Origin: Acidithiobacillales bacterium SM1_46
Lineage (GTDB): Bacteria > Pseudomonadota > Gammaproteobacteria > Acidiferrobacterales > Sulfurifustaceae
Length of the DNA stretch: 32,230 bases
NCBI GenBank assembly: GCA_001304215.1
Contig: LJVB01000010.1
Span: 1-32,230, forward strand
Reading direction: 5' to 3'
Shown: positions 3,695 to 32,113 of the stretch, piece after piece
Position numbering within the stretch: position 1 is the stretch's first letter
How the letters are laid out: each line of letters opens with the position of its first letter
Made by a program: the position numbers and the translations under genes
The notes under the pieces: model-generated
Database searches by the model: none
What the model saw: only the letters and a program-made list of their open reading frames with translations
What the model was told of the DNA's origin: nothing

Positions 3695-4395
3695 TTCAGA
3701 CCCTTGATCCAGCGGGCGTAAAACACATCTGCAATGCGGTTCATGCGTTCAGCGCGCGCGACGAGATTGACGCGCATCTGCCGTGCGCTTTGCACCGTAT
3801 CCGTCGGTCTGGCGATCTCGGCCGCACCGGCACGCGCCCAGCTGCGCACGAGCACCGGCGTCATCTCGACGTGACACTGGAAGGCAAGATGCTTGCCGAG
3901 GACAAAGGCCTGATGCCTGCAATCTCGACTCTTGAGAATGGCGGTTGCGCCGGACGGCAGCCCGCTGAAGGTCTCGCCGTGCCAGTGGAATACCTCGAAT
4001 TGCGGCGCGAGCCCGGTCATCCAATCGTGCGCGACGGAAGATTCAATGACGCGCACCGGCAGCCAGCCGATCTCCTTCACGCGGTTGCGCGTCACGCGCC
4101 CGCCGAACGCCCTGGCCATGAGCTGCCCGCCAAGACAGTGTCCGAGTACGGGCACGTCCTTTTGCGCCGCCTCTCGAATCAATGCCAGTACCGGCGGTAT
4201 CCATGGGAGGCGGTCGTTGGCGCTCATCGGGCCGCCCATGAAGACCAAGCCGGAAATTCCGGCTATGCTTTTTGGCACTGCTTCGCCCGCATCGATGCGC
4301 ACGAGACGGTAGCGAAGATTGTGGCGCGCAAGGAAGTCGGCAAGATAGCCGGGTCCTTCGTGAGCGGCATGGCGAAATACCAGTATCTCTGGCAT
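3691..4395 (-). CDS. Class I glutamine amidotransferase domain protein (GMP synthase-like)
   Basis: 'PVLGHCLGGQLMARAFGG' nucleophile region, 'AFQCHVEMTP' His/Glu; stop overlaps the ROK start (ATGA). Confidence 0.9.
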   Translation of the reverse strand: MPEILVFRHAAHEGPGYLADFLARHNLRYRLVRIDAGEAVPKSIAGISGLVFMGGPMSANDRLPWIPPVLALIREAAQKDVPVLGHCLGGQLMARAFGGRVTRNRVKEIGWLPVRVIESSVAHDWMTGLAPQFEVFHWHGETFSGLPSGATAILKSRDCRHQAFVLGKHLAFQCHVEMTPVLVRSWARAGAAEIARPTDTVQSARQMRVNLVARAERMNRIADVFYARWIKGLK

Positions 4396-5306: not shown

Positions 5307-5981
5307 ATGAAGGCTCGCAGTGCGGTGGTGACGGGTATGACGGCGGCGCTCTTGTTTACGGTTGCGGCGGCGTTCGCGGCGGTGCCGAAGATCAGGGTCC
5401 AGGCACTGTTCGAAAACAAGGCGCTGTTCACCATCGATGGCAACCGCCGGCTGCTCAAGGTCGGCGAGGTCAGCCCGGAGGGCGTGAGGCTCATCGCCAC
5501 CGATACCCGGTCCGAGCGCATGATCGTCGAGCGTGACGGACGGCAGGAGGTGCTGGTGCTGGGAGTGGTCATGATGCCACGGGTGGATAATGACCCGGTG
5601 GAGGCCGCGCTGAATGCCAGTGTGGTACTGCAGGCGCAGGACAAGCACTTCTATGCCGACGGTGCGGTCAATGGCAAGAAGACACGCTTTCTGGTGGATA
5701 CCGGTGCGACAGTGGTGACACTGAGCGGAAACGACGCCCGACGCCTTGGCATCGCCTACGTCGGCAGCACCAATCGTGCCGAAGCGAGCACCGCTGGCGG
5801 CGATGTCTCGACTTATATGGTGAACCTGGAGCGCCTGCAGGTCGGTTCGATCGAACTGACCAATGTCGAGGCCAGCATCATCGAAGGTCGATTCCCAAAG
5901 GAGCCGCTGCTTGGAATGTCGGCGCTGGGCCAACTCAATGTGCGCCACGACGGCGAGCGCATGGAACTTAGCAAGCGCTAG
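5307..5981 (+). CDS. Retropepsin-like aspartic protease, clan AA (paralogue of 4412..5092)
   Basis: MKARSAVV... signal peptide; 'KHFYADGAVNGKKTRFLVDTGATVVTLSGNDARRLGI', 'PLLGMSALGQLN'. ORF extends to 5226; ATG 5307 has a GGGGGAACGG region upstream. Confidence 0.88.
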   Translation: MKARSAVVTGMTAALLFTVAAAFAAVPKIRVQALFENKALFTIDGNRRLLKVGEVSPEGVRLIATDTRSERMIVERDGRQEVLVLGVVMMPRVDNDPVEAALNASVVLQAQDKHFYADGAVNGKKTRFLVDTGATVVTLSGNDARRLGIAYVGSTNRAEASTAGGDVSTYMVNLERLQVGSIELTNVEASIIEGRFPKEPLLGMSALGQLNVRHDGERMELSKR

Positions 5982-6016
5982 TAAACAGACTTACCCAACT
6001 CTCTCCTGTTGTTGAA

Positions 6017-6066
6017 CTCCGCATCGGCAGGCGGTATGTTGCCTACCGACAGCGGAGACTTTTTTT
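6017..6066 (+). terminator. Intrinsic-terminator-like hairpin with T7 tract abutting the next start codon (possible attenuator)
   Basis: CTCCGC(6017-6022) ... GCGGAG(6052-6057), inner stem CGG-c-AGGC/GCCT-a-CCG, then ACTTTTTTT directly before ATG 6067. Confidence 0.75.
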
Positions 6067-6825
6067 ATGGGGGTTTGGAAAACCTCGATCGTTGCCACAG
6101 CGCTGCTGCTGATTGCCAAATCGGCCGGCGCGGCCGAGGCAAGTGCGGCGCAGATCATCAAGAGCGCCATCGACTACTGGCGCGACGTTTCCTCCTATTC
6201 CGTCGTGGACATGACTATCCACCGTCCCGATTGGGAGCGCACCATGACGATTCGCGTATGGACGCGTGGCAGCAAGGAATCGCTCGTCCGCGTCACCGCA
6301 CCGCCCAAGGACGCCGGCAACGCCACACTGCTCCTTGACAACGACATGTGGAGCTTCACGCCCAAGATCAATCGCGTCATCAAGATCCCGTCGAGCATGA
6401 TGAACCAGAGCTGGATGGGATCGGATTTCTCCAACAACGATCTTGCCAAGGCCGACGACCTGATCGAGCAATACGATCATAAGCTACTGCGCACCGAGTC
6501 ACATGAGGGCCGCAAGGTCTATGTCATCGAGTCGGTGCCCAAGGAGGCTGCGCCCGTTGTGTGGGGCAAGGAAGTCGTAAAGGTGCGCGAAGACTGGATA
6601 ATGCTTGAGCACGAGTTCTATGACCAGGAGAACAGGCTGCTCAAGAAGCTCGTGACGTCCGACATCAAGCCGATGGGCGGCAAGCTCATCGCCGCGCGCG
6701 AGCGAATGCAGCGAGTCGACAAGCCCGGCGAGTGGACCGACGTCGTCACGCACGAGATCAAGTTCGGGGTTACAATCGGACCCAACACGTTCACGCTGTC
6801 GAACCTTCGTAATCCGCGGGAGTAG
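6067..6825 (+). CDS. Outer membrane lipoprotein-sorting (LolA-like) protein
   Basis: Signal peptide MGVWKTSIVATALLLIAKSAGAAEA; 'WRDVSSYSVVDMTIHRPDWERTMTIRVWTRGSKESLVRVTAPPKDAGNATLLLDNDMWSFTPKINRVIKIPSSMMNQSWMGSDFSNNDL' is typical of the LolA-like family adjacent to ABC exporters. Confidence 0.88.
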   Translation: MGVWKTSIVATALLLIAKSAGAAEASAAQIIKSAIDYWRDVSSYSVVDMTIHRPDWERTMTIRVWTRGSKESLVRVTAPPKDAGNATLLLDNDMWSFTPKINRVIKIPSSMMNQSWMGSDFSNNDLAKADDLIEQYDHKLLRTESHEGRKVYVIESVPKEAAPVVWGKEVVKVREDWIMLEHEFYDQENRLLKKLVTSDIKPMGGKLIAARERMQRVDKPGEWTDVVTHEIKFGVTIGPNTFTLSNLRNPRE

Positions 6826-6828
6826 GGT

Positions 6829-8055
6829 ATGGGTATTACGCTGCGATTTGCGTGGCGTAACCTGTGGCGGCATCCGCGCCGCACCTGGCTCACGGCTTCT
6901 GCCATCGCCTTTTCCGCCACGTTGCTGGTGTTCATGATCACGTTGCAGCTCGGTGCTTACGATCTCATGATCGACACCAGCCTGCGCGTATACACGGGGC
7001 AGCTGCAGGTGCAGCGCACGGGCTACCTCGATAAGCCCCAAATCCGCTCCACCATCCCCGAGGCCGCGTCCCTTGCCGCGCGGCTTCGCGGAGCCGGGTT
7101 CCCTGCGGTCGCAACTCGTGCGCAGGGCTTTGCGCTTGCCTCGAGCGGTTCACGTTCGTATGGCGTACCGGTCGTCGGTGTAGAGCCTGCGCATGAAAAG
7201 GAGGTATCGACCATTCCAGGCCGGGTGACGGAGGGGCGTTACCTTTCCGACGTGCGCGCCCAGGAGGCCGTGATTGGCGCGACCCTGGCGCGCAACCTCA
7301 AGGTGAAGTTGGGCGACGAGCTCACCCTGCTTGGCAGCGGAAAGGACGGTTCGGTCGCCGCCACCATCGTTCCGGTCGTGGGCATCTTCGAGAGCGGAAA
7401 TCCCGAGCTCGATCGCCACTTCGTGCAGTTGCCGCTTGCGACATTTCAGGACGTCTTCAGCATGGGCAGTGATGCGCATGCGATTGTATTAAGTGGTCTC
7501 GACCTGCGCACACTGGCGCAAGCGGCTACACGCGTCGAGGCAAGGTTGCCAAAGGATCAGGATCTCGTGCTAAGGCACTGGGAGGAACTGCTGCCAGGCA
7601 TCAAGGAGGCGATTCAGGCCGACATGGTGCAGAACTGGTTCACCTACATCGTGCTGATCGTGGTGGTGACCTTCAGCATTCTTAACACCTTTCTCATGTC
7701 GGTACTGGAGCGCACGCGCGAGTTCGGAGTGATGCTTGCGCTTGGGGCATCGCCCTATCGCATCGGCAGTCTCGTCATGCTCGAATCCACGCTGCTTGCG
7801 CTGCTCGGAATCTTGATCGGCATGGGATGCGGCTCGGGGCTCGCCGTTTATTTCCATTTCGAGGGATTCACCTTCCCCGGGATGGCCGAGCTCTATGGCC
7901 AGTTTGGACTGCCCGGTGTCATCCATTCGAAACTTTCTTTCACTACCCTGACGCTCGGGCCGGCAGTCATCTTTGTCTTTACCGTCGCCGCCGCCCTTTA
8001 TCCGGCGCTGCGCATCCGCCGGCTCACACCAGTTGAGGCGATTCACGCGGTGTAG
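6829..8055 (+). CDS. ABC transporter permease, FtsX/LolC/E/MacB-like
   Basis: 'ITLRFAWRNLWRHPRRTWLTASAIAFSATLLVFM'; C-terminal FtsX TMs 'NTFLMSVLERTREFGVMLALGASPYRIGSLVMLESTLLALLG', 'LRIRRLTPVEAIHAV'. Confidence 0.93.
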   Translation: MGITLRFAWRNLWRHPRRTWLTASAIAFSATLLVFMITLQLGAYDLMIDTSLRVYTGQLQVQRTGYLDKPQIRSTIPEAASLAARLRGAGFPAVATRAQGFALASSGSRSYGVPVVGVEPAHEKEVSTIPGRVTEGRYLSDVRAQEAVIGATLARNLKVKLGDELTLLGSGKDGSVAATIVPVVGIFESGNPELDRHFVQLPLATFQDVFSMGSDAHAIVLSGLDLRTLAQAATRVEARLPKDQDLVLRHWEELLPGIKEAIQADMVQNWFTYIVLIVVVTFSILNTFLMSVLERTREFGVMLALGASPYRIGSLVMLESTLLALLGILIGMGCGSGLAVYFHFEGFTFPGMAELYGQFGLPGVIHSKLSFTTLTLGPAVIFVFTVAAALYPALRIRRLTPVEAIHAV

Positions 8056-8057
8056 CC

Positions 8058-9287
8058 ATGCTGCGCGCCCAGCCACTCTTGCTCACGCTTGCCTGGCGCA
8101 ATCTCTGGCGCCACCGTGGGCGTACCGCCGCAATCCTGTTCGCGCTCGCGCTAGGCATCTGGTCGATGGTGGCGCTTGCCGCGCTCTCGCGTGGATCGCT
8201 CGAGGGACAGCTGCAAAAGGCAATTGGCAATCTGACCGGGCATATACAGATACACGCACGCGGGTACCGGGACGATCCGGCCATCGATCATCGCATGCCT
8301 GCGCCGGACGCGGCGCTCGCGACCGCATTGACCGATCCCTCGGTACGTGTCTGGGCGGGGCGGGTGCGGGTACCGGCCGTGATCGCAAGCGAGCGCGAGT
8401 CGGCAGGCGTGACGCTCGTCGGAATCGAGCCGCAACGCGAGCAAGGGTTGTCCTTCATCGGGACCGCAGTCACCGACGGTCGCTATCTAGAGTCTCCGGG
8501 CGACACCGGGTTGTTGCTCGGTCGCAAGCTCGCCGAGCGTCTTGAGACGGCGCTGGGGCGACGCGTAGTCGTGATGAGCCAGGACGTGAAAAATCAGGTG
8601 GGTGACCGCGGCTTCCGGGTAGTCGGCATTTTTGACGCCGAGCCTGAGGCAATCGAGACCGCTTTTGTCTTTGTTGGCCGTGCCACGGCGCAGGAGATGC
8701 TCGGAATGGGAGATACCCTTTCGGAGATTTCCCTACGGAGCGACGATCGCAATCGGCTCGAAGTGCCGCTCAGCACGCTACGCACGGTGGCACCAAGTCT
8801 CGATATTGAACCTTGGACCGTGGTGGAGCCGTTGCTGACGCTTACTGAGAAGATCGTCAACGTCATCCTTGTCATTTGGTACGCAATCGTGTTCGCCGCC
8901 ATGTCCTTCGGACTCGTCAACACGCTTCTTATGGCAGTATTCGAGCGCACCCGCGAATTCGGACTGTTTCAGGCGCTGGGCATGCCCCCGCGGCATATTC
9001 TGGGCCAGGTGCTGGTCGAGTCGCTCATCCTGCTCGCCATCGCACTGGTGATTGGAAATCTTGGCGCGCTGGCAACGGTTCACGCGTTGCGGGATGGTCT
9101 CGATCTCTCTGCATTCGCCGAGGGCATGGAGTATTTCGGAGTAAGTCCGATCATCTATCCGGCGCTTTCGGTAGGGGACGTCACGATGGCAAACACACTG
9201 GTCGCTGTGCTCGGGCTGGTGGCGAGCCTTTATCCGGCATGGCGTGCCGCGCGACATGTCCCGATCGAGGCTATTACGCGTGTCTAG
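8058..9287 (+). CDS. ABC transporter permease, FtsX/LolC/E/MacB-like
   Basis: 'LTLAWRNLWRHRGRTAAILFALALGIWSMVAL'; 'NTLLMAVFERTREFGLFQALGMPPRHILGQVLVESLILL', 'WRAARHVPIEAITRV'. Confidence 0.93.
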   Translation: MLRAQPLLLTLAWRNLWRHRGRTAAILFALALGIWSMVALAALSRGSLEGQLQKAIGNLTGHIQIHARGYRDDPAIDHRMPAPDAALATALTDPSVRVWAGRVRVPAVIASERESAGVTLVGIEPQREQGLSFIGTAVTDGRYLESPGDTGLLLGRKLAERLETALGRRVVVMSQDVKNQVGDRGFRVVGIFDAEPEAIETAFVFVGRATAQEMLGMGDTLSEISLRSDDRNRLEVPLSTLRTVAPSLDIEPWTVVEPLLTLTEKIVNVILVIWYAIVFAAMSFGLVNTLLMAVFERTREFGLFQALGMPPRHILGQVLVESLILLAIALVIGNLGALATVHALRDGLDLSAFAEGMEYFGVSPIIYPALSVGDVTMANTLVAVLGLVASLYPAWRAARHVPIEAITRV

Positions 9288-10036: not shown

Positions 10037-10879
10037 GTGTGTAGCGTTCTGGCTGTGCTTGCCGCCATGTGCTTGTCTGCTATCGCATCAGCCGGCGAGC
10101 TGCCAATCTTTGATGCGCACATTCACTACAGTGAAGATGCCTGGAGCATACTGTCGCCGCAGGAGGCCGTGGCGCGGCTGCGCAGCGCCGGTGTCGTCCG
10201 CGCGCTGGTGTCTAGTTCGAATGACGACGGCACGCAGAAACTTTATGCGGAAGCGCCGGATCTCGTCATTCCGGAACTTCGCCCCTACCGCACGCGCGAC
10301 GATCTGAACGGATGGTTCAACGATGAAACCATTGTCGTGCACGTCGAGCAGCGCCTGAAGCAGTATCGCTATGTCGCCATCGGTGAGATTCATCTCGATG
10401 ACGAGCAGGCCGACACGCCAGTAGTACGCCGTGTCGTTCAGTTGGCGAAGCGCTATGGCCTGATGCTGCATGTGCACTCGGACGCCAACGCCATCGATCG
10501 AATTTTTCACCAGGATCCCGAGGTGCGAATCCTGTGGGCGCATGCAGGCTTCGAGAATCCCGAGCGAGTGGCCGAACTGATGCGCCGGCACAGGCAGCTC
10601 TGGGCGGATCTGTCGTTTCGCTATGAAATCCAAACGGCTGAAAAGATTGCGCTTTCTTGGCGCGCACTGTTCCTCGAGTTCCCGGACCGCTTCATGGTCG
10701 GCACGGATACCTACACACCTGACCGCTGGAGCGAGGTGGCGCGCCATGCTTCATGGGCACGAACCTGGCTTGCCGATCTGCCCCGCGGGGTTGCGGAGCG
10801 TATTGCCTACAAGAATGGCGAAGCGGTGCTGACGGTGGCTTTCTGTGAGTCGCCGCGCCGCGGAAACAGCGCGAAATAG
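10037..10879 (+). CDS. Amidohydrolase family protein with signal peptide
   Basis: 'LPIFDAHIHYSEDAW', 'GLMLHVHSDANAIDRI', 'ILWAHAGFE', 'RFMVGTDTYTPDRW'. ORF extends to 9914; start (GTG 10037 or ATG 10067) uncertain. Confidence 0.82.
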   Translation: MCSVLAVLAAMCLSAIASAGELPIFDAHIHYSEDAWSILSPQEAVARLRSAGVVRALVSSSNDDGTQKLYAEAPDLVIPELRPYRTRDDLNGWFNDETIVVHVEQRLKQYRYVAIGEIHLDDEQADTPVVRRVVQLAKRYGLMLHVHSDANAIDRIFHQDPEVRILWAHAGFENPERVAELMRRHRQLWADLSFRYEIQTAEKIALSWRALFLEFPDRFMVGTDTYTPDRWSEVARHASWARTWLADLPRGVAERIAYKNGEAVLTVAFCESPRRGNSAK

Positions 10880-15674: not shown

Positions 15675-16232
15675 TCAGCGCGTCGGAGCAGGCTTGGCAA
15701 TCTCGGCTTCGATAGACTGTATGAGCTCCTTGTCGGTCGGCGCTACGGTACTGCCGAAACTCCCCACAGCCCGGCCATCGCGGCTAATGAGGTACTTGTG
15801 AAAGTTCCAGCGTGGTCGCTTGCCGGTTTCGCGGGCGAGCGACTCGTAAAAGGGGTGCGCGTCGGGTGCCTTCACGCGTGTCTTCTCAAACATCGGGAAC
15901 TCGACGCCGTAGGTGAGCCGGCAAAACTCCTGGATCTGCTTCTCGGTCCCCGGCTCCTGGCCGAGGAAGTCATTGGAAGGAAAGCCAAGCACCACCAGAC
16001 CGCGTTCCCGATACCTGTCGTAGAGCTTCTCGAGCCCGGCGTACTGGTCGGTGAACGCGCACTTGCTCGCGGTGTTGACCACCAGCAGCACCTTGCCAGC
16101 GTAGCGCTCGCACAAGTGCACGGATTCTTCAGATGCGAGGGTGCGTACCCTCAAGTCGAGCAGCGGCGGACAGGCGGCTTGCAGCGGCAATGACGTGATG
16201 ACCAGTAACAACCCGGCAATCATACGCAGCAT
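15675..16232 (-). CDS. Glutathione peroxidase family protein (Cys type)
   Basis: Signal peptide; 'LLVVNTASKCAFTDQYAGLEKLYDRYRERGLVVLGFPSNDFLGQEPGTEKQIQEFC', 'RWNFHKYLISRDG'. Confidence 0.93.
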   Translation of the reverse strand: MLRMIAGLLLVITSLPLQAACPPLLDLRVRTLASEESVHLCERYAGKVLLVVNTASKCAFTDQYAGLEKLYDRYRERGLVVLGFPSNDFLGQEPGTEKQIQEFCRLTYGVEFPMFEKTRVKAPDAHPFYESLARETGKRPRWNFHKYLISRDGRAVGSFGSTVAPTDKELIQSIEAEIAKPAPTR

Positions 16233-27300: not shown

Positions 27301-28410
27301 TCACAGGTTCGCCGCTACCCTGGATTCACGAACCCCGCTGGCCCACCAGATACGACAGGCTCCCTCATCAGAGACCATGCACGGGCCGATGGGTTGGCGG
27401 GGGGTGCAGGCGCGGCCATAGAGGATGCACTCGCTCGGGTAGATCTTGCCGAGTACCACGCGGGCGCAGTCGCAGCCGGGCGGCATTTCGCCACGGCGCT
27501 TGCGCGATTCGTCTTCATATGAACGGAACTGCAGGCGCGCATCGTGCGCGGCGAACCGGTCGCGCAACCTGAAGCCCGAGCCCGGGATGATGCCGACGCC
27601 ACGCCAGTTGGCGGCCTCGACCTGCATGGTCTCGGCAAGCCAACGCTTTGCCGTGGGATTGCCGCCGGGGTGGGCAACCTGTCGATAACAGTTGTCGAGA
27701 AAGTGTTGACCTTCGACGTGCTGGCGCAGTACCGAGTACATCGCGGCGAGGAGGCTCTCCGGATCGAAACCGGCAACCGCTGCCGGCAGTCCGTGCCGGT
27801 CTACCACAAACTGCCATTCCTCCGGGCCCATGACGGTGGAGACGTGTCCGGGCGCAATCAGCGCATCGAAACCTGGTGCGTCGGATTCAAGCAGCATCGC
27901 CACGGCGGGCCAGGTAAGCCGGCCAGACAGCAGGACGAAGAGATTGTCCGGCACGCCTTCGGCCAGCATGCCAGCGATAGGCGCGGTTGTGGTTTCGAAC
28001 CCGGCGGCGAAGAACACCACCGCCTGGTCCGGATGCTGGCGGGCGATCGCGACCGCTTCGACTGGCGAAGCAATCGGACGGATGTCAGCGCCCTGCGCCT
28101 TCGCCTGTTCAAGCGAGCGCGCGTCTTTCTTTGGTGCGTTCACCGGCACGCGCAGCATGTCACCGAAGGCGATGAGGATCACGTCCTCGTGCAACGCAAG
28201 CTGGATAGCCTGGTAGACATCCTCTTCCGGGCAGACACACACCGGACAACCGGGCCCCGGGATCAGCTCGACTTGCTGCGGCAGCGCACCGCGCAGGCCG
28301 GCCATGGTGATCGAGCGTTCATGGCCGCCGCAGACATTCATGATGCGCACCCGGCCGGGAAGCGGCAGGGCGCGGATCTTCTCAAGCCATTGCCTCGCGC
28401 TGATGGTCAT
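27301..28410 (-). CDS. hypD: Hydrogenase formation protein HypD
   Basis: 'VRIMNVCGGHERSITMAGLRGALPQQVELIPGPGCPVCVCPEEDV', 'FFAAGFETTTAPIAGML', 'PPGCDCARVVLGKIYPSECILYGRACTPRQPIGPCMVSDEGACRIW'. Confidence 0.96.
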   Translation of the reverse strand: MTISARQWLEKIRALPLPGRVRIMNVCGGHERSITMAGLRGALPQQVELIPGPGCPVCVCPEEDVYQAIQLALHEDVILIAFGDMLRVPVNAPKKDARSLEQAKAQGADIRPIASPVEAVAIARQHPDQAVVFFAAGFETTTAPIAGMLAEGVPDNLFVLLSGRLTWPAVAMLLESDAPGFDALIAPGHVSTVMGPEEWQFVVDRHGLPAAVAGFDPESLLAAMYSVLRQHVEGQHFLDNCYRQVAHPGGNPTAKRWLAETMQVEAANWRGVGIIPGSGFRLRDRFAAHDARLQFRSYEDESRKRRGEMPPGCDCARVVLGKIYPSECILYGRACTPRQPIGPCMVSDEGACRIWWASGVRESRVAANL

Positions 28411-28417
28411 GCGCACT

Positions 28418-29242
28418 TCAGCCCCGGATACGCCACTGGCCAAACGACTGATGCAGCTTCGCGCCATCCGGCTGGATCGCGGGCCTGAGGCTCACGCGCG
28501 CGGCAACTCGATGGCGCTGGTCACGCACTTCCTGCTTCAGCCACGCGATCCAGTGCTCCATGCCCGCACCCTTGCGTGCGGAAAGTTGTATCGCCGGGGC
28601 AGGATTGGCAAGCGCCCGCAAGTTCGCTTCCGCCCGTTTTGTATCAAAGTCATCGAGCACGGCGAGTAGGTCGGTCTTGGTGAGCAGCATAAGATCCGCA
28701 GCGCGGAACATGACCGGATACTTCGACGGCTTGTCGTCGCCTTCGGTCACGGACAGCAATGTCACGTTGCGATGCTGACCGAGATCGAAGCTCGCCGGGC
28801 AGACAAGATTGCCGACGTTCTCAATGAACAGCACATCGAGACCCGCGAGCGGCAGGTGATGCAGCGCCTCATGCACCATGTGCGCATCGAGATGACAGGC
28901 GGTGCCAGTCGTGATCTGGTGAGCGGGGACGCCCTTCGCACGCACGCGCGCGGCATCGTTCTCGGTTTCGAGGTCGCCCTCAATCACGGCGATCCGCAAC
29001 TCATCCTTGAGCGCGTCAATCGTGGCCTCGATGAGCGCGGTCTTTCCAGCGCCGGGCGAGGACATGAGGTTCAGCGCCAGCACGCCGTGCGTGTCGCAAT
29101 GCGCGCGGTTGTGGGCGGCCACCTGATCGTTCGCGGTCAGCAGACTGGATAGGACCGAAACCGCGCTTTCGCCTCGTTCATTGGGGGTGTGCGCAAGGTG
29201 CGCGTTGCCCGGCGTTACGTTGCAGCCACAGGTGTCGCACAT
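28418..29242 (-). CDS. hypB: Hydrogenase nickel incorporation GTPase HypB
   Basis: N-term 'MCDTCGCN'; P-loop 'LNLMSSPGAGKTALIEATIDAL', 'VIEGDLETENDAARV', 'FIENVGNLVCPASFDLGQHRNVTLLSVTEGDDKPSKYPVMF'. Confidence 0.96.
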   Translation of the reverse strand: MCDTCGCNVTPGNAHLAHTPNERGESAVSVLSSLLTANDQVAAHNRAHCDTHGVLALNLMSSPGAGKTALIEATIDALKDELRIAVIEGDLETENDAARVRAKGVPAHQITTGTACHLDAHMVHEALHHLPLAGLDVLFIENVGNLVCPASFDLGQHRNVTLLSVTEGDDKPSKYPVMFRAADLMLLTKTDLLAVLDDFDTKRAEANLRALANPAPAIQLSARKGAGMEHWIAWLKQEVRDQRHRVAARVSLRPAIQPDGAKLHQSFGQWRIRG

Positions 29243-29595
29243 GCTTCTTCTGCCTCCAGGAGTTCCACGCTGGCCAATAGCAGTTCGTCGCCGCTCAACA
29301 ATCGTGTGTGCCAGTCACCGCATCTGCCGCATAGCAGGCGGTTAGCGGTTGCGTCCGTCTCGGCGCCGCATTGCTCGCACTTGACCCGTATCGGAAGGTC
29401 TTCGATGACCAGCTCGGCGGTCGCGGCAAAGGTACCGCCACGGGCAAGCGGAAAAGCGGCTTGGAGCAGTTGCGGCTCCACCCCCGAGAGCGGACCGATC
29501 CGCAGCACAATGCGGCTTACCGATTGTGCGCGGTGCGATTTTGCCACTGTCGCCACTTGCTCGAGCAGCGCCTGGCAGACCGACAGTTCATGCAT
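29215..29595 (-). CDS. hypA: Hydrogenase nickel metallochaperone HypA
   Basis: 'MHELSVCQALLEQVATVAKSH...' N-terminal Ni site (MHE), Zn site 'CEQCGAETDATANRLLCGRCGD'. Confidence 0.94.
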   Translation of the reverse strand: MHELSVCQALLEQVATVAKSHRAQSVSRIVLRIGPLSGVEPQLLQAAFPLARGGTFAATAELVIEDLPIRVKCEQCGAETDATANRLLCGRCGDWHTRLLSGDELLLASVELLEAEEACATPVAAT

Positions 29596-29848
29596 GGCCA
29601 GGTCCCGGCTCGACATTCAGGCTTTGCTCGGCAGCGAGGATTTCGTCATAGAGTTCCCAGGCGCTGCGTGCCGCTTCCGGCTCAATCTTCTGGATAGCGT
29701 AGCCGACGTGCACCATCACGAAATCGCCAACCTGCGGCGGCTCATCCTGTACCAAGAACAGGCTCACATCGCGGCTCACGCCCTTGGCCTCGCAACGCGC
29801 GGTGAAGCCGTCGATCTGCATCACCTGCATGGGAATGCCGAGACACAT
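29588..29848 (-). CDS. hypC: Hydrogenase assembly chaperone HypC
   Basis: 'MCLGIPMQVMQIDGFTARCEAKGVSRDVSLFLVQDEPPQVGDFVMVHVGYAIQKIEPEAA'. Confidence 0.96.
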   Translation of the reverse strand: MCLGIPMQVMQIDGFTARCEAKGVSRDVSLFLVQDEPPQVGDFVMVHVGYAIQKIEPEAARSAWELYDEILAAEQSLNVEPGPGHA

Positions 29849-30057: not shown

Positions 30058-30598
30058 ATGACAAGAAGAACCCTGGTGCTTGGAATCGGCAACACGCTTC
30101 TTGGCGACGAAGGCGTTGGCGTGCACGCCGTTCACGCACTCCGCCGTTCACGCACTCGAGGCCCGCCTCGGGTCGCCGAAGAACGTTCAGTTCCTGGATG
30201 GCGGGACACTTAGTTTCACGCTCGCCGGGCCGATTGAGTCCACCGACCAGCTCATCGTGATCGATGCGGCGCAGCTGAATGCGCCGCCCGGTACCGTACA
30301 GGCCTTCGAGGGCGAGGAGATGGATCGCTTTCTCGGTCGTCAGCGCAAGCGCAGCGTGCACGAGGTGGGGCTGCTTGATCTGATGACCATCGCCAGACTC
30401 ACCGACGCGCTGCCGGCGCGACGTGCGCTGATCGCGGTGCAGCCAGAATATGTGGATTGGGCCGATGCTCCCACACCCGCGGTAGCCGCGGCTATTCCGC
30501 GCGCGTGCGACATTGCGAATGGACTGATCGAGCGTTGGCAGGGCTCGGTCGTCACCCACGTGGCGGACGCCAGATTCCAAGGGAGCCAAAGCGCATGA
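30058..30598 (+). pseudogene. [NiFe]-hydrogenase maturation endopeptidase (HyaD/HynD-type), frameshifted by a 16-bp tandem duplication
   Basis: ATG 30058: MTRRTLVLGIGNTLLGDEGVGVHAVHAL, then a frame change; the remaining frame reads EARLGSPKNVQFLDGGTLSFTLAGPIESTDQLIVIDAAQLNAPPGTVQAFEGEEMDRFLGRQRKRSVHEVGLLDLMTIARL. In the given sequence frame 1 stops at TAG 30211-30213. Confidence 0.88.
30126..30157 (+). repeat. Perfect 16-bp direct tandem repeat (CGCCGTTCACGCACTC) x2
   Basis: Copies at 30126-30141 and 30142-30157 are identical and contiguous. Confidence 0.97.
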
Positions 30599-31035
30599 CC
30601 GGCCTCGCTGACATTGGTGTACAGGTCGAGAGCGCGTCTTCCATGACCGGCGCGGCACCCGCGGTGCTGCGCGAAATCGAATCCATGCTTGTTGAGCTGA
30701 TCGAGCGTGGAACGCTCGGGAGGATCGATCTGCGCAGTCTACCGTTGTCGCCCGCTGATCTTGACTGGCTCGCCGGCGCGCTCGGTGAGGGTGAAGTGCA
30801 GGCCAGCGTCGAGACCATGGGATCCAGCGATGTACTGGAAACCGGCGTCTTCGGCGTGTGGTGGGTGCGGCACTTCGACGAAGGCGGCAACGTGACGGCG
30901 GATTTCATTGAAGTCACGCAGCTACCGGAATTGCTCAAGACCCATCCGGCAGACATGCAGGCCGGGCTCGCGCGCCTACGCGAACAGATGAATACCTTGC
31001 AGAATCTCGAAGAAGGAGACGGTCATGTCCGATGA
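30595..31035 (+). CDS. hupH: Hydrogenase expression/formation protein HupH/HyaF-like (C-terminal domain)
   Basis: 'ASVETMGSSDVLETGVFGVWWVRHFDEGGNVTADFIEVTQLPELLKTHPADMQAGLARL'; ATGA overlap with the protease gene. Confidence 0.8.
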   Translation: MTGLADIGVQVESASSMTGAAPAVLREIESMLVELIERGTLGRIDLRSLPLSPADLDWLAGALGEGEVQASVETMGSSDVLETGVFGVWWVRHFDEGGNVTADFIEVTQLPELLKTHPADMQAGLARLREQMNTLQNLEEGDGHVR

Positions 31036-32113
31036 ACTTACGCTGGGTGAAGCGCTGGCGCGGCGCGGCGTCAGTCGCCGCACATTTCTCAAGTTCTGTG
31101 CCTCGGTCGCATCGGTGATGGCCATGCCACCCGGCATGGTCGAGGTGATGGCAGAGGCGCTCGCCAAGGTAAAGCGCCAATCGGTGATCTGGCTGAGTTT
31201 CCAGGAGTGTACCGGCTGCACGGAGTCCATCACGCGCTCGCACTCACCGACGCTCGAGAGCCTGATCTTCAATGCCATCTCGCTCGACTACCATCACACC
31301 TTGATGGCGGCCTCTGGCACGGCGGCGGAGGAGGCTCGCGCGCAAGCGATGAAGGAGAATGCCGGTAAGTACATTCTGGTAGTTGACGGCTCGGTGCCGA
31401 TGAAGGACGGCGGCATATATTCGACGATTGCCGGTATATCGAACCACGACATGCTGGTAGAGACCGCCAAGGGTGCGATGGCGATCATAGCGGTAGGCAC
31501 CTGCGCGGCATTTGGTGGCATTCCGCATGCCAAGCCAAATCCGACCGGCGCCGTCTCGGTAATGGACATCATCAAGGACAAGCCAATCATTAATGTTTCG
31601 GGTTGCCCGCCGATCGCCACTGTCATGACCGGCGTGATCGCGCACGTGTTGACGCTCGGGACGATTCCCGCGCTCGATCACCTCAAGCGCCCGAAGGCGT
31701 TCTTCGGCGACACCATTCATGATCGCTGCTATCGCCGTCCATTCTACGAGCGTGGCCAGTTTGCAAAGACCTTCGATGACGAGGGCGCGCGTAACGGCTG
31801 GTGCCTGTTTGAGCTCGGTTGCAAGGGTCCGACCACATACAACGCCTGTGCAACCGAGAAGTGGAACGGCGGTGTGAGCTTCCCGATCCAATCGGGTCAC
31901 GGCTGCATTGGCTGCTCGGAGCCGGACTTCTGGGATGCGGGCAGCTTCTACGCGCCAGTGTCGACTCCGGGCGTGAACGTTAAAACCATTGCGACGGCGG
32001 CGGTGGCTGCCGGTGCCGCGGCAGGTGTGGCCTTTGGGCTTTATGACCGCGCCAAGCGCACGCGCGCCCAGGCGAGTCACGAGAAGCTGACGGTGAAGGA
32101 CATCAAGGAGTAA
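31025..32113 (+). CDS. hynS: Membrane-bound [NiFe]-hydrogenase small subunit with Tat signal (HynS-like)
   Basis: Tat 'SRRTFLKFCASVASVMA'; 'IWLSFQECTGCTESITRSHSPTLESLIFNAISLDYHHTLMAASG'; 'AVGTCAAFGGIPHAKPNPTGA'; 'VSGCPPIATVMTGVI'; 'HDRCYRRPFYERGQFA', 'SGHGCIGCSEPDFWD'; C-terminal hydrophobic segment. Confidence 0.93.
   Translation: MSDELTLGEALARRGVSRRTFLKFCASVASVMAMPPGMVEVMAEALAKVKRQSVIWLSFQECTGCTESITRSHSPTLESLIFNAISLDYHHTLMAASGTAAEEARAQAMKENAGKYILVVDGSVPMKDGGIYSTIAGISNHDMLVETAKGAMAIIAVGTCAAFGGIPHAKPNPTGAVSVMDIIKDKPIINVSGCPPIATVMTGVIAHVLTLGTIPALDHLKRPKAFFGDTIHDRCYRRPFYERGQFAKTFDDEGARNGWCLFELGCKGPTTYNACATEKWNGGVSFPIQSGHGCIGCSEPDFWDAGSFYAPVSTPGVNVKTIATAAVAAGAAAGVAFGLYDRAKRTRAQASHEKLTVKDIKE

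Follow-up and report, generated by a model that had tools for sequence, protein, structure and literature searches.

The window analysed here, a stretch of 32,230 nucleotides, is the whole of one contig (C171) of a draft genome (G000) that comprises 182 contigs and 2.62 Mb and is 91% complete. A gene for a hydrogenase maturation protease of the HupD/HyaD type lies near one end of the window, adjoined by hyp genes, a HupH gene and the gene for the small subunit of a [NiFe] hydrogenase (Table 1); the contig breaks off 117 bp past the last of these. Within the protease gene, the unit CGCCGTTCACGCACTC stands twice, in perfect copies placed back to back at 30126-30157, exactly as a preliminary description of this DNA had claimed. 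When up to two mismatches are allowed, the two copies are the only matches to this unit in the window (mean in shuffled sequence, 0.02), and the duplication, with a unit of 16, a total length of 32 and an extension of 0, scores highest among the nine arrays that TRF reported in the window. No microhomology was found at its ends.

Table 1. Features of the hydrogenase locus in the window, and the similar duplications found on other contigs of the draft
Feature	Coordinates	Strand	Basis
hypD, intact	27301..28467	-	TIGR00075
hypB, intact	28418..29242	-	TIGR00073
hypA, intact	29215..29616	-	TIGR00100
hypC, intact, divergent from hupD	29588..29848	-	TIGR00074
hupD, frame-shifted N-terminal fragment, 51 codons as the file reads	30058..30213	+	ORF reading; N-terminal part matches TIGR00072
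hupD/hyaD-type hydrogenase maturation protease gene, 174 aa with one copy	30058..30598	+	TIGR00072, HycI and HybD matches
16-bp unit CGCCGTTCACGCACTC, first copy	30126..30141	+	Sequence search, TRF
Second, surplus 16-bp copy	30142..30157	+	Missing in all relatives; same signature elsewhere in the draft
HupH_C-domain hydrogenase expression protein, intact	30595..31035	+	PF04809, 103 bits
[NiFe] hydrogenase small subunit, intact	31025..32113	+	TIGR00391, 419 bits; PF14720
Duplications elsewhere in the draft	C7:3081, C19:3916, C24:278, C37:16292, C48:4135, C71:6291, C76:19472, C167:1265		

The protease gene and its ancestral form

The hupD frame that opens with the ATG at 30058 begins MTRRTLVLGIGNTLLGDEGVGVHAVHALRRSRTRG... 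and, owing to the extra 16 bases, is shifted after residue 28, so that 51 codons are read before the stop at 30211-30213. Removal of one copy restores a clean frame of 174 aa, which matches TIGR00072 with 139 bits (cut-off 47) over residues 6-148 and the Pfam family HycI (PF01750) with 83 bits, and is similar to the E. coli HybD protein (1cfz) with E 4e-22. In this one-copy reading, the full-length match and the conserved N-terminal motif GIGNTLLGDEGVGVH place the product among the HyaD/HybD/HupD endopeptidases, as does the gene neighbourhood; the two-copy reading splits the family match in two, and it is in this frame shift that the gene as filed departs from the family. Hence, the preliminary description was right about the identity of the gene, its conserved N-terminus, the position of the stop and the effect of deleting one copy. 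Its further statement that the remaining hyp genes are intact is also borne out, HypA, B, C, D, E and F all being recovered by family match. The 150 codons of hupD that remain are undamaged, which implies that, unless it arose very recently, the surplus copy is not real.

The preliminary description had proposed a comparison of the allele with related strains. An alignment of the DNA with that of four relatives contains exactly 16 columns that are absent from all four, and when about 100 homologous loci were searched by tblastn with the one-copy protein, no inserted block was seen after GDEGVGVHAV, so that none of the relatives compared carries more than one copy. Judging from these alignments, the single copy is the ancestral state. 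Among the species representatives searched, nothing closer than 65% protein identity was found and, hence, no second genome of this species; plasmid records yielded distant matches only, to small subunits.

No gene for a [NiFe]-hydrogenase large subunit (PF00374) was found in the draft; the clusters on contigs C171 and C172 are both cut by the contig ends where the large subunit would lie. In one relative (G011), the same gene order is followed by a 217-aa membrane protein, a 453-aa Fe-S protein and the large subunit, the C-terminus of which reads DPCIACAVH-VTDPDGEELTKVKIS; this order, we take it, resembles the arrangement of the Isp-type (group 1e) hydrogenases. Apart from hupD, the draft contains two HycI-family genes, one on contig C62 and the other at C172:129, the latter directly after a reading frame that ends ...YDPCISCATHFLRLQVSRA, which we read as the probable C-terminal end of the large subunit of another hydrogenase. 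Contig C172 (L006) starts, within positions 1-701, with a DPCISCATH-FLRLQVSRA tail that is followed by a HycI-family protease of its own. On C62 (L005, 192-5436), the HycI-family protease adjoins hdrABC-like and Fe-S hydrogenase-like genes, a set that suggests a third hydrogenase-related system. Since both of these genes form part of separate hydrogenase or Hdr clusters, there is no obvious stand-in for hupD: a second intact cognate protease, which the preliminary description had named, together with fixed presence of the duplication, as grounds for refutation, was not found, and rescue by another protease of the draft is rejected on the same grounds.

Similar duplications elsewhere in the draft

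A scan of 1.21 Mb, or 46% of the draft, recovered perfect two-copy tandem units of 43, 36, 34, 22, 17, 16, 16, 14 and 11 bp. With the 43-bp unit present twice, ilvD has an altered C-terminus; its end is normal when one copy is taken out. The units of 22, 17, 14 and 11 bp split, respectively, a histidine kinase/response regulator gene, a glutathione-transferase-like gene, a cysQ-like gene and a gene for a dynamin-like GTPase, each of which is normal with one copy (these names, as well as ilvD, were read from the translations). The 36-bp unit, at 16292 of contig C37 (L201), adds 12 residues to S-adenosylhomocysteine hydrolase (ahcY) as compared to its best PDB match, and an 8-bp duplication at 16081, 211 bp away, lies where the ahcY frame breaks; the 34-bp unit falls in a stretch with no gene assignment. 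Finally, the second 16-bp unit, at 4135-4166 of contig C48 (L212), is located inside the 16S rRNA, between GACUGAGACAC and GCCCAGACUCC, where the Rfam comparison presents it as an insertion of 16 nt in a universally conserved stretch that is otherwise close to the consensus; the universal 16S motif beside it occurs only once in the whole draft. For ahcY and the 16S rRNA, too, the one-copy reading is the normal sequence.

In the control sequences from five relatives (307 kb), no tandem unit of at least 16 bp was found. The control set of 80 other loci (587 kb) contained five such units, three of them multiples of three in length and the other two associated with repeat extension or low complexity. 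Units of 7-8 bp were not in excess over the controls, so that it is the longer units on which the argument depends. An automatic test of ORF length, applied to all the duplications, proved too blunt: open frames on other strands caused it to miss both hupD and ilvD.

The lengths of the contigs bear on the way in which the draft was put together. The contig numbers track falling length: from C14 to C90, 33 contigs form a descending series (at most 18 in shuffles), and of the 35 contigs that stand off the series, 31 exceed the length that their rank permits. From C162 to C182, the series is no longer than in shuffles, and all 14 off-series contigs are over-long. We infer that the numbering preceded an extension or merging of contigs. 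In a comparison that was devised after the duplications were known, the duplication splits the contig at the piece length predicted from its rank in three of the four simple two-piece contigs, namely C24 (larger piece 8107, bracket 8002-8193), C167 (10166, bracket 10084-10266) and C71 (6304 or 6255, bracket 5965-6541), and misses narrowly, by 40 bp, in the fourth, C48 (6855, bracket 6895-6962). Among the long contigs C19, C37, C76 and C171, which fall outside this comparison, C76 cannot be read as a simple join of two pieces, and a join at 30126 of C171 cannot be located independently because this contig seems to have been extended more than once.

Origin of the duplication

Taken together, these data make it very likely that the 16-bp tandem duplication is an artefact of assembly, present in the file yet very probably absent from the organism. 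The same signature recurs across unrelated loci, including those that would not tolerate it, such as ilvD, ahcY and 16S rRNA, and its occurrence in vital genes and in the only 16S site almost certainly indicates a joining error and not a biological switch. The process can be envisaged as follows: two pieces with an overlap of 16 bp would have been placed end to end with the overlap unmerged, so that it was written twice. An overlap written twice yields a perfect repeat of arbitrary length that shows neither extension nor preference for any type of gene. The second copy is, thus, best read as the unmerged overlap at a contig join; the cause would lie in the join step, and the reads would be expected to support one copy. 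Most likely, the hupD gene of the organism has a single copy and is intact, encoding an ordinary HyaD/HupD-type protease that would trim the large subunit of the adjacent [NiFe] hydrogenase at its C-terminus.

In metagenome assemblies, joins that are made despite overlapping flanks have been described to leave duplicate sequence, the two copies being separated by Ns (Chen et al. 2020, PMC7111523). The hupD duplication resembles such local assembly errors in being a perfect duplicate of arbitrary length, in breaking a gene, in belonging to a draft that has the appearance of a metagenome bin and, if it is an unmerged overlap, in its position at a join, but differs from them in that the Ns usually found between the copies are absent and the two copies abut. 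A search of the literature on reversible short duplications and on frameshift artefacts in metagenome-assembled genomes found nothing directly usable.

Among the three explanations put forward in the preliminary description, it is, accordingly, the one listed last, an assembly artefact, that we retain, whereas neither a recent mutation nor an ON-OFF switch is supported, given that conserved genes and the only 16S site carry the same signature. The foremost of the rivals, although improbable, is a real and recent inactivating duplication, fixed or common in the population, such that HupD would be lost, the large subunit would stay unprocessed and the enzyme would be inactive. The frame is truly broken as written, the draft has no second protease of the same type, and the intact remainder of hupD is what one would expect of a recent event. 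However, the presence of the signature in ilvD, ahcY and 16S rRNA would then require many simultaneous mutations of a near-lethal kind; the ends of the duplication lack microhomology, and neither the six hyp genes nor the genes for HupH and the small subunit are disrupted. It is very improbable that the duplications are real as a group, the organism belonging to a lineage in which short tandem duplications free of microhomology arise frequently and the two-copy hupD being a reversible OFF allele.

Perfect tandem copies can be lost through slippage, and a repeat unit that is not a multiple of three inside a coding frame is a trait that hupD as filed has in common with phase-variable contingency loci. 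Nevertheless, a reversible slippage or recombination switch, with hydrogenase maturation OFF at two copies and ON at one, appears extremely improbable. Unlike a phase-variable locus, hupD has two copies only and no repeat array; the duplication is not conserved in the approximately 100 homologous loci, no repeat tract, conserved or variable in number, having been found in the relatives, where recurrence would be expected of a contingency locus; and the signature is also seen in rRNA and housekeeping genes, which cannot be switched off. Slippage is further disfavoured by the absence of the short end homology that usually accompanies it, and slippage driven by a hairpin was considered and rejected, the single-copy site having a modest potential to fold (z -1.6) and the ends no microhomology. 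Scarcely credible, too, is a two-copy gene that still functions through a +1 ribosomal frameshift or a downstream start: a 172-aa ORF from the TTG at 30080 does match HycI, with 80 bits, but lacks the GIGNxLLGDEGVGVH segment, which is present in nearly all homologues and presumably contains the nickel-binding glutamate known from HybD, inspection revealed no recognised frameshift signal at CTC-CGC, and no conserved feature speaks for either route as normal expression.

If the duplication is, as we argue, an unmerged overlap, it carries a warning, in that perfect tandem duplications which break genes in draft genomes can be mistaken for a switch or a pseudogene. A cheap way of telling such artefacts from real features is to look through the assembly concerned for further cases of the signature, chiefly among rRNA and housekeeping genes; in the present draft, the ilvD, ahcY and 16S records are likely to be wrong. 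Two minor observations may be added. On contig C19 (L163), the gene-breaking 22-bp duplication at 3916 is accompanied by an in-frame duplication of 12 bp at 4344, 428 bp away in the same histidine kinase gene, and the pair might flank a short inserted fill piece. On the minus strand of the window, two large ORFs (122-1285 and 1300-2457), neither of which has a Pfam match, look like the halves of a single gene that a small frameshift has divided, close to a repeat of glycine codons (1285-1380), and this frameshift may be another assembly error.
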